Source of the DNA: a virus
Length of the DNA: 64,000 nucleotides
IMG/VR virus record: IMGVR_UViG_3300008267_000003
Location: 98,012 to 162,011 of that record
Direction: 5' to 3' (one strand)
Positions 32,187 to 49,475 of the stretch are shown here, in pieces. The notes beneath the pieces are model-generated. The model was given only the letters and a program-made list of their open reading frames with translations, was not told the origin of the DNA and searched no databases. How positions within the stretch are numbered: position 1 is the first letter of the stretch; every line of letters begins with the position of its first letter. Position numbers and translations under genes: made by a program.

Positions 32187-33077
32187 ATGAAGACTCTAAA
32201 GCAGATTATTGAGGGTGTTGTTGTTACGTCTGATTTTAAATTGGACAGAAAAGGTCGCAAGTATAAAGCTCATCGTATGTCGATGGGTGATGATATGAAG
32301 GAAGATTCAAATCCTTATACGAAAGTATACGAAGAGGATACCTTTACTAAAACCCTTCCTCGTATGGGCAACAAAGCCTTGGATACAGCCAAAGGTTTAA
32401 TTAGTCCTTATGAAAAAGCTATGTCTGATATGTCCCCTGGATCTGATTACTACAAGAAAAACATAGAAAATAATCCAGAAGCAAAAGCAAAAGTTGATGA
32501 TTTCATGAAGTCAGCTCCCAAAGCTAGTGAGCTTGATTCCAGCATCGATAAAACAAAACAAAAATTCAACAAAGCTCTCACAAACAAAGGCACGGTGGGT
32601 GATTCTGTTGAAGAGGATACTTCAATAATGAACGCAGAAAGATCAAAAGTTCTAGCAAGATTTATCAAAAGTGCTACTCCAAAAAATGGACAAGTTGTAT
32701 ATAATGTTGATACGAGTGGAGAAGTTTCTGAAGCACGAGGACGTCCTGCTGGTGCTGCTACTCTTGCTAAACGTGCAGCTGCAGCTTCTAAGCCACGTGA
32801 GGATGATGAGGAAGGTGAACATTACGAAGCAGATAGTGGAGTAGAAGCAGATCAGCATATCCATGTTCAGTTAAAGAAAGCTGCTGACTCTGATCAGAAA
32901 CCATTTGAAGTATCCTTCAAGAATGGTAAGAAACATACTGTATCTCAGAAGGTTGCTAAGGATATTCTCAGTGCTACAGAAAGACTAAAACCAGAACACA
33001 GAAAGAACGTTCATGATGAGATTCATCATTCTTATGATAATCTAATGTCGGTTCATAGATTGGTAGCTCGTAAATAA
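32187..33077 (+). CDS. Hypothetical cargo-type protein with IIE leader
   Basis: A 296-residue charged protein whose start MKTLKQIIE|G has IIE at residues 7-9, matching the gp21-type site. The body is hydrophilic, rich in Lys, Glu and Asp, and has an acidic stretch (EDDEEGEHYEADSG). The C-terminal domain (about 215-296, IHVQLKKAADSDQ onward) looks folded and may be a strand-rich module followed by helices. It starts one base after the long repeat protein. Function unknown. Confidence 0.65.
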   Translation: MKTLKQIIEGVVVTSDFKLDRKGRKYKAHRMSMGDDMKEDSNPYTKVYEEDTFTKTLPRMGNKALDTAKGLISPYEKAMSDMSPGSDYYKKNIENNPEAKAKVDDFMKSAPKASELDSSIDKTKQKFNKALTNKGTVGDSVEEDTSIMNAERSKVLARFIKSATPKNGQVVYNVDTSGEVSEARGRPAGAATLAKRAAAASKPREDDEEGEHYEADSGVEADQHIHVQLKKAADSDQKPFEVSFKNGKKHTVSQKVAKDILSATERLKPEHRKNVHDEIHHSYDNLMSVHRLVARK

Positions 33078-44288: not shown

Positions 44289-44572
44289 AAGACTTATTAA
44301 AATTTCTACCACAGATCTTGAGCTACATGCCCGAGATCATAAAGTATATAAAGTATATTCCAATACTAATGGTGTTAGGTGTTGTTGGGTATGTTGGATA
44401 CTATTTTGCTACGACATACAAAGACCCGTTTAAATGTTACAACAATGAGATATACGAAAGAATGTCTATAGACTCAAATGTGTATAAGTTCAAAGGTGGA
44501 TATTGCGTTAATCTAGACGCTAAGGAGATTCAAAATAGTAACGATAACCAGCCAAGCGGCAAAGAAGATTAA
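44285..44572 (+). CDS. Small membrane protein
   Basis: A 95-residue protein with one clear membrane segment at about 26-48 (IPILMVLGVVGYVGYYFATT). The extracytoplasmic domain contains two cysteines (KCYNNEIYE, GGYCVNLD) and the tail is acidic. Its last 38 bases overlap the Fe-S carrier gene and contain that gene's ribosome site. Confidence 0.65.
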   Translation: MKDLLKFLPQILSYMPEIIKYIKYIPILMVLGVVGYVGYYFATTYKDPFKCYNNEIYERMSIDSNVYKFKGGYCVNLDAKEIQNSNDNQPSGKED

Positions 44573-47975: not shown

Positions 47976-48142
47976 TCGGTGACGATAAAGAAATTCAGAT
48001 GTGTAGAACATGCGATGCAGAGTTTGTGGTTGATGGATACAATATAGACGAGTCTTTATCCTTTTGTCCATACTGTGGCTCTATGATGGGTGAAGATCCC
48101 ATGGAAGAAGAATTCTTTGATGATGAAAATATAGACAGATGA
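47972..48142 (+). CDS. Zinc-ribbon small protein
   Basis: A 56-residue acidic protein with two CxxC pairs, CRTCDAEF (about 11-18) and CPYCGSMM (about 33-40), a classic zinc ribbon, followed by an acidic tail (EEEFFDDENIDR). The start at 47972 overlaps the previous stop (ATGA). Confidence 0.75.
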   Translation: MIGDDKEIQMCRTCDAEFVVDGYNIDESLSFCPYCGSMMGEDPMEEEFFDDENIDR

Positions 48143-48549
48143 CCTGGCTATATAATAATGAAGAGTTTAGTGAACTTCCTGAAAACTATTATGGTTTTGT
48201 GTACTTAATAACAAACAACTCCTCTGGTAAAAAATACTTTGGTAAGAAGCTCTTCTATTCTCAGAAACAAAGACAAGTCAAGGGAAAGAAGAAAAAGTAC
48301 AAGGTTGAATCTGATTGGAAATTGTATTATGGTTCCAATGAAGAACTAGCTAATGATGTCAGTCAGAACGGTGTAGAAGCATTCACAAAAGTCATATTGA
48401 AGCTCTGTAGGACGAAGGGTGAGTGCTCCTATTTTGAAGCTAAATATCAATTTGAAAACGATGTTCTCTTACATCCAGAACTGTATTATAATTCTTGGGT
48501 ACAGTGTAAAATACATCGTAAACATTTAAAATTGTCAGACGCAGGGTAG
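48139..48549 (+). CDS. GIY-YIG-type endonuclease (homing-like)
   Basis: A 136-residue protein with GFVYLITN (19-26) and KKYFGKKLF (31-39), a variant of the GIY...YIG core. KVESDWKLYYGSNEEL follows near 55-70 and a glutamate in YFEAKYQFE near 100, as in T4 Seg-like nucleases. It likely nicks or cuts DNA and may be a free-standing homing nuclease. Its last ten bases, including the stop, lie inside the tRNA gene, so mobility next to a tRNA is plausible. Confidence 0.75.
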   Translation: MTWLYNNEEFSELPENYYGFVYLITNNSSGKKYFGKKLFYSQKQRQVKGKKKKYKVESDWKLYYGSNEELANDVSQNGVEAFTKVILKLCRTKGECSYFEAKYQFENDVLLHPELYYNSWVQCKIHRKHLKLSDAG

Positions 48550-48614
48550 CGCAGCGGTAGAGCGCGGGACTCATAATCCCGAGGTCGGAGGTTCGATTCC
48601 TTCCCCTGCAACCA
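48540..48614 (+). tRNA. tRNA-Met (CAT anticodon), initiator-like C1:A72
   Basis: A 75-base cloverleaf with encoded CCA. The acceptor is CGCAGGG / CCCTGCA with an unpaired C1:A72. The anticodon stem is CGGGA/TCCCG with loop CTCATAA, and the T arm is GGAGG-TTCGATT-CCTTC. Anticodon CAT is at 48572-48574. The C1:A72 mismatch and CTCATAA loop are features of bacterial initiator tRNA. However, the D stem has C11:G24 and a G12:A23 mismatch, and only two of the three initiator G:C pairs next to the loop. It may be an initiator or a diverged elongator/Ile2 tRNA. Confidence 0.9.
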
Positions 48615-48620
48615 AACACT

Positions 48621-49475
48621 ATGGAAAATCCAATTGCTCAAGCCAGCGCACGTCATGGCAACTTTCTCTTCTTTCGTAACGATGATCCAATTGGAGCATG
48701 CCTTCACCACTATGGTGAATGGGCTCAGCAAGAGTTAGATCTATTTGACATGATTCTAACAGAGCACTCCTCTGTAGCCGACATAGGAGCAAACATCGGT
48801 ACTCACTCCGTGTTCTTTTCTAAAAAAGCTAATAAGGGTAAGCTCATCTGCTTTGAACCTCAAATTTATATCTTTGAGCTGCTTTGTGCGAATCTACTTT
48901 TCAATGGTTGCTACAATGTTATTCCTGTCAATGCTGCCTTATCAAATAAAGCATCTCGACAGCGCATGGTCAACTTCAATCCTTTTGTTGAAAATAAAAT
49001 AAACTATGGTGAGTTTAAAATTAACAACCATGATGACAAAGGGATTGTAACAGCTGTTCAAACTCTTGACAGTTATATTGACACATACAGGTTTGATTTA
49101 ATTAAGATGGATGTTGAAGGTCATGAAGTGGAAGCACTTGATGGTGCTAAGAAGATAATCAAAAAGCACAAACCAGCAATGTATATTGAATACAATAGTG
49201 ACTTAGGTAATGAGGAATTACTTCAGGTACTTGAGAAAAGTGGTTACAATTGCTACTGGCATGTTTATACCAAACACAACCCTAAGAACTTTAATAACAA
49301 AACTCAAGATGTATGGTGTGAAGAGAGCTTAATTATAGACAAGAACACATATCATAAGAAGTATGAAGGCAATCTACTTTGTGTTCATCGTGATAGTCCC
49401 CAACCTTCAGGTCTACCGTTGTTGCAAGATCAAAGAAACCTTCTTCAATTTCTGACCCATGTTGGAGCATTTTAA
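48621..49475 (+). CDS. FkbM-family methyltransferase
   Basis: A 284-residue SAM methyltransferase. SSVADIGANIGTHSVFFSKK (about 49-68) is SAM motif I and GKLICFEPQIYIFELL (about 72-87) carries the acidic residue. NVIPVNAALSNK follows and FDLIKMDVEGHEVEALDGAK (about 156-175) is the FkbM core. It probably O-methylates a sugar. The last part is less conserved. Its stop overlaps the end of the opposing minus-strand gene by 4 bases. Confidence 0.85.
   Translation: MENPIAQASARHGNFLFFRNDDPIGACLHHYGEWAQQELDLFDMILTEHSSVADIGANIGTHSVFFSKKANKGKLICFEPQIYIFELLCANLLFNGCYNVIPVNAALSNKASRQRMVNFNPFVENKINYGEFKINNHDDKGIVTAVQTLDSYIDTYRFDLIKMDVEGHEVEALDGAKKIIKKHKPAMYIEYNSDLGNEELLQVLEKSGYNCYWHVYTKHNPKNFNNKTQDVWCEESLIIDKNTYHKKYEGNLLCVHRDSPQPSGLPLLQDQRNLLQFLTHVGAF

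Follow-up and report, generated by a model that had tools for sequence, protein, structure and literature searches.

In bacterial initiator tRNA (tRNA-fMet), the known function of leaving 1:72 unpaired is to allow formylation, to confer resistance against peptidyl-tRNA hydrolase, and to keep the tRNA out of elongation (PMC4611024, PMC11497404, PMC8576571). The main determinants for Met-tRNA formyltransferase (MTF) lie in the acceptor stem, with A11:U24 as a secondary formylation determinant, and formylation persists when an initiator acceptor stem is combined with the anticodon stem-loop of an elongator; G31:C39 is said to occur in all initiators (PMC4611024). In the anticodon stem, residues G1338 and A1339 of 16S rRNA touch 29:41 and 30:40 and not 31:39 (PMC11497404, PMC4611024). 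Phages are reported generally to avoid encoding tRNA-fMet, a statement made for cases in which its anticodon is the target of a host nuclease (PMC10264068). Phage T5 carries a CAU tRNA, tRNAfM, annotated as "initiator tRNA fMet" (AY543070, positions 32428 to 32505), which, like the tRNA described here in its own phage, is one of many tRNAs that the phage encodes.

The window analyzed here is the final 64 kb of a linear, 162,011-bp IMG/VR record from a T4-like phage that encodes a DNA polymerase, a DnaB-like helicase, and a ribonucleotide reductase, all of phage families. Among isolates, its nearest matches at the DNA level include Methylophilales phage Melnitz and marine cyanophages. A single tRNA was found in the window, identified by ARAGORN as tRNA-Met(cat) at positions 48540 to 48614 of the plus strand and matching the Rfam tRNA model (61.9 bits; E = 5e-11); the gene has a CAU anticodon, an initiator-type acceptor end, and an encoded CCA. 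The 5' strand of its acceptor stem (CGCAGGG, 48540 to 48546, plus strand) begins with C1 (48540), which lies unpaired opposite A72 (48610) of the 3' strand (CCCTGCA, followed by A73 and CCA; 48604 to 48614, plus strand). Pairs 2:71 to 7:66 are all intact, so that 1:72, with C and A, is the one acceptor position lacking a Watson-Crick pair, a lack that is the primary determinant of formylation in initiators, and with G2:C71, C3:G70, and A73 the rest of the initiator acceptor stem is present. The D arm (GCGC-AGCGGTA-GAGC, 48549 to 48563, plus strand) is elongator-like, having C11:G24 (48550:48562) in place of the initiator feature A11:U24, together with a G12.A23 mismatch (48551.48561). In the anticodon arm (CGGGA-CTCATAA-TCCCG, 48565 to 48581, plus strand; anticodon CAT, 48572 to 48574), the first two of the three initiator G:C pairs, G29:C41 and G30:C40, are retained, and A31:U39 (48569:48577) replaces G31:C39; the two pairs contacted by 16S rRNA are thus kept and the third is lost. 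The T arm (GGAGG-TTCGATT-CCTTC) occupies 48587 to 48603 of the plus strand. Elongator tRNA-Met pairs at 1:72, which this tRNA does not; it does share C11:G24 and A31:U39 with elongators, but its 12:23 position is G.A, not U:A. The C4:G69 and C5:G68 pairs of tRNA-Ile2 are replaced by A4:U69 and G5:C68. A preliminary description of this DNA had listed C1 opposite A72, the CTCATAA loop, the encoded CCA, C11:G24, and A31:T39, each of which is seen in the sequence, and had overlooked the G12.A23 mismatch.

Scoring position by position against 30 bacterial CAU tRNAs (18 initiators, 5 elongator tRNA-Met, and 7 tRNA-Ile2) divided the molecule into two halves. The reference set is small, although leave-one-out assignment was right for 29/30 of its members, and its Ile2 tRNAs were sorted from elongator tRNA-Met by C4:G69/C5:G68, which makes that split partly one of construction. 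The acceptor stem (−9.5 as initiator, −16.1 as elongator, −27.4 as Ile2) and the T stem (−4.3, −14.5, and −6.3, respectively) were closest to initiators, whereas the D arm (−20.5, −8.9, and −10.0) and the anticodon arm (−22.9, −8.4, and −10.0) were closest to elongators; A11:U24 (A:T), absent here, is present in 18/18 of the bacterial initiators sampled. The tRNA is a chimera, with initiator-like acceptor and T stems and elongator-like D and anticodon arms, and the earlier term "hybrid" was apt. Classification had also been proposed as a check on the initiator reading, and in this form its outcome was mixed: the acceptor and T stems spoke for an initiator, and the molecule as a whole scored as elongator tRNA-Met (−47.9, versus −57.2 as initiator). 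Across the family, the whole-molecule vote was split between elongator (16 tRNAs) and initiator (14 tRNAs). We set the whole-molecule call aside as misleading, as the two halves disagree. Because the total favors elongator, a standard whole-molecule classifier may mislabel this tRNA, and a refutation by classification could mislead.

The tRNA gene lies in a conserved locus, between a SegE-like GIY-YIG endonuclease open reading frame (ORF) (48139 to 48549, plus strand; PF19835, 1.9e-36), whose last 10 nucleotides, stop codon included, overlap the 5' end of the tRNA, and an FkbM-type methyltransferase ORF (48621 to 49475, plus strand; PF05050, 3.5e-18). In three related contigs (L030, L031, and L034), the tRNA is identical at 75/75 positions while the flanking kilobases are only ~68 to 71% identical, and a fourth (L029) differs at four positions, which are confined to the T arm with its loop and to position 66. 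More distant phages with the same arrangement emerged when the endonuclease protein, and not the tRNA, served as the search anchor. At the same locus in L336 to L340, the tRNA has diverged strongly and yet keeps C1xA72, G29:C41, G30:C40, and A31:U39; in L342, A1 replaces C1 and is still unpaired with A72. Other relatives of the endonuclease precede Leu-Gly-Met tRNAs, whose CAU member does pair at 1:72.

Conservation of the mismatch was further examined in viral contigs with a pattern that was fixed in the D and anticodon arms only and was therefore blind to the acceptor stem; as C11 was part of the pattern, its conservation among these relatives is no evidence. The pattern matched 52 viral contigs, which together with the window gave 31 distinct tRNAs. 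In 29/31, position 1:72 cannot pair (A.A in 13, C.A in 11, G.A in 2, U.U in 2, and C.U in 1), these tRNAs being related and the counts hence not independent events; the other two have a weak U1:A72. None of the 31 has lost a pair from 2:71 to 7:66, which leaves 1:72 as the sole acceptor mismatch position. The helices elsewhere covary, with 75 alignment cells changed on both sides compared to 21.6 in shuffles, and the 1:72 columns of that alignment are unpaired in 29/30. Among distinct non-CAU phage tRNAs from the loci analyzed in which the rest of the stem is intact, by comparison, 1:72 is mismatched in 44/1,448, of which 39 are tRNA-Gln, and in only 5/1,388 once tRNA-Gln is removed. As the five kinds of mismatch require several changes, none of which fixed a strong pair, the comparison indicates that the lack of a 1:72 pair is under selection and is actively kept in these relatives. 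Within the phage itself, only tRNA-Gln shares a 1:72 mismatch, and a weak acceptor end is usual for tRNA-Gln. Since the phage's tRNAs are otherwise paired there and relatives retain the mismatch, we judge that the C1xA72 mismatch of the window tRNA is more than chance.

A wider census of viral contigs with two acceptor-anchored patterns, some matches of which are host genes at prophage edges, recovered at least 121 distinct CAU tRNAs with C1xA72. Among the matches listed, G30:C40 is present in 115, G31:C39 in 71, and A11:U24 in 56, and 60 of the 65 listed tRNAs that lack A11:U24 still have G:C at 30:40. When CAU tRNAs were drawn regardless of their acceptor stems, 30:40 was G:C in 13/13 of those with C/A at 1:72, versus 56/92 of the others. 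Isolated phages also carry C1xA72 tRNAs annotated as tRNA-Met, and T5 has one initiator tRNA annotated as such. A pattern search of genome contigs returned only three look-alikes, from Celeribacter, Bradyrhizobium, and a Tabrizicola MAG (L210, L211, and L212). These are phage-like CAU tRNAs with the anticodon arm GGACTCATAATCC, in which 1:72 is G1.A72, T1:A72, or unclear; two of the three are not cleanly paired at 1:72, and two of these bacterial genomes also hold canonical initiators. As GGACTCATAATCC also occurs in some bacterial Ile2 tRNAs, the anticodon arm by itself is no proof of an initiator.

We consider it probable (roughly 85%) that the product of this gene is a phage initiator tRNA working like bacterial tRNA-fMet. 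The preliminary description had favored such a reading, and the non-pairing at 1:72 conserved across relatives lends it strong, sequence-based support; a whole-molecule score nearer to elongators and the missing A11:U24 and G31:C39 count against it. From sequence features we infer expression, charging, formylation, P-site use, and timing as follows. The tRNA would be excised from a cotranscript with the endonuclease and methyltransferase genes and charged by the host MetRS via CAU and A73. Its open 1:72 end would then permit formylation by the host MTF and would also keep the tRNA off EF-Tu and peptidyl-tRNA hydrolase, and IF2, together with the grip of 16S rRNA on 29:41 and 30:40, would bring it to the P site. 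A search of the phage for a formyltransferase found none, so that the tRNA would need that of the host; the phage does encode a peptide deformylase (PF01327, 8e-33), which may help process the products. A search for ribosomal protein S21 in the phage also found none, and scanning the surroundings of the tRNA for promoters and terminators gave matches at chance level only. During infection, the tRNA may supplement or replace the host initiator, forming one element of a nearly complete set of phage tRNAs. The earlier suggestion that it rescues initiation when host tRNA is lost is plausible, and a self-sufficient set as host tRNAs fall may be a reason for its carriage.

That set consists of a separate tRNA cluster outside the window (G000:C1:86977-95527; L024, 6978 to 15527), 51 kb from the window tRNA gene, with ~23 genes (24 by ARAGORN and 22 by Rfam) covering all amino acids save Ala. 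Its tRNA-Ile(tat) (L024:10379-10473) is probably a spurious call. The cluster has no clear elongator tRNA-Met, and its own CAU tRNA, in which both C4:G69 and C5:G68 are present, comes out as Ile2 in the scoring. This absence bears on an alternative that we regard as improbable, namely, a dual-function or elongator tRNA-Met that reads internal AUG codons, either exclusively or in addition to initiation, with which the elongator-like D and anticodon arms, the whole-molecule score, and the weak U1:A72 in 2/31 relatives would also agree. The missing elongator proves little for a linear contig that may not hold the whole genome, and a 1:72 mismatch is known to hinder elongation; 29/31 relatives are unpaired at 1:72 through five combinations, as against the 5/1,388 of the non-Gln phage controls.

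An Ile2 identity, in which TilS would turn C34 into lysidine and the tRNA would read AUA as isoleucine, had been named as the other possibility, and we find it highly improbable. In its favor are the CAU anticodon, A37, A38, and an anticodon arm, GGACTCATAATCC, that some bacterial Ile2 tRNAs also have, and AUA is in use by the phage (132/555 Ile codons in 21 ORFs); however, the two pairs used here for sorting Ile2 are absent, both are found in the phage's other CAU tRNA, Ile2 gives the worst acceptor score (−27.4, versus −9.5 for initiator), and C1xA72 would be left without explanation. Homing endonucleases often adjoin phage tRNAs, and the GIY-YIG ORF overlaps this one by 10 nucleotides, but a decaying or nonfunctional copy, or a tRNA kept merely as a target for homing or integration next to the endonuclease gene, is hardly credible given 75 bases identical between ~68 to 71% identical flanks, compensatory helix changes, an acceptor mismatch always at 1:72 only, and an encoded CCA.

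Several features of the neighborhood deserve mention in their own right. The SegE-like endonuclease adjoins the tRNA in 13/53 contigs with this tRNA type, and its relatives (L343 to L413) repeatedly lie directly before tRNA genes (the present initiator tRNA in some cases, Leu-Gly-Met in others), as though the endonuclease gene were linked to such loci; the C1xA72 tRNA of Rhizobium phage RHph_TM39 is likewise abutted by a homing endonuclease. The ATG of the methyltransferase lies 6 nucleotides past the CCA, with no Shine-Dalgarno sequence in between (48612 to 48623), and once the tRNA has matured, the methyltransferase mRNA would be left almost without a leader. The start of this protein (MEN.IA) is kept in L030 and L034, where the spacing is 10 to 12 nucleotides.

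An IscA/SufA-type Fe-S carrier ORF (PF01521; 44517 to 44858, plus strand) has an in-frame ATA (44535 to 44537) after AAGGAG. The proposal that this ATA is the start codon is supported both by the AAGGAG and by an ATG at the matching position in three relatives (L435, L117, and L131); a near-identical contig (L032) has the same ATA. We dropped the further suggestion that the tRNA explains such unusual starts, because L435 has the same tRNA type and starts its Fe-S gene with ATG. A CAU anticodon pairs no better with AUA.

Compared with bacterial tRNA-fMet, the window tRNA has the same unpaired 1:72, G2:C71, C3:G70, A73, CAU, G29:C41, G30:C40, and CCA; it differs in having C11:G24, G12.A23, and A31:U39 where the bacterial tRNA has A11:U24, G12:C23, and G31:C39, and in being carried by a phage. 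It shares CAU and a similar anticodon arm with tRNA-Ile2 (CAU, lysidine), from which it is distinguished by a mismatched 1:72 and the lack of C4:G69 or C5:G68. Altered or "unconventional" initiator tRNAs, the 3GC mutants, were reportedly described in E. coli by Samhita and coworkers in 2012. In these, as in the window tRNA, the changes lie in the three anticodon-stem G:C pairs; the 3GC initiators are laboratory constructs or bacterial genes, whereas here a natural phage lineage has lost 31:39 only. The lineage thus offers a natural test of what is essential in an initiator, having fixed the 1:72 non-pairing and the two pairs gripped by 16S rRNA while dropping A11:U24 and G31:C39, features described in reviews as determinants or as universal. 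VapC toxins cleave tRNA-fMet at the A38-C39 bond (PMC4105405), and the change from C39 to U39 is suggestive of an escape from nucleases that cut tRNA-fMet. More speculative, and rather unlikely in our view, is the idea that phages repeatedly evolved a minimal initiator, retaining just the features that host machinery has to read (an open 1:72 and G30:C40) with the rest swapped, notably position 39 on the 3' side of the VapC cut, by which phage translation would start despite an anticodon nuclease destroying the host initiator.

Among phage tRNAs, T5 tRNAfM resembles the window tRNA in its 1:72 mismatch (U.U), its G30:C40, and a 31:39 position that is not G:C; it differs in A29:U41, U31.G39, U73, and its D arm, and both its locus and its phage family are unrelated. 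Rhizobium phage V1VFA-S (L040), Stenotrophomonas phage Philippe (L039), and Rhizobium phage RHph_TM39 (L043) carry C1xA72 tRNAs that, like that of the window, have the pyrimidine 11 of elongators, G30:C40, and A31, and that are annotated as plain tRNA-Met; their sequences, loci, and hosts are different, and any orthology to the window tRNA would be putative. In the part of the literature searched, we did not find this variant, its conserved non-pairing, or its apparent abundance. The statement that phages generally avoid encoding tRNA-fMet (PMC10264068) is to be qualified, as viral contigs commonly contain such tRNAs, which tend to be labeled simply as tRNA-Met and which whole-molecule classifiers may call elongators. 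Thus, phage initiator tRNAs as such were already known from T5, while the variant found here is apparently both new and widespread.
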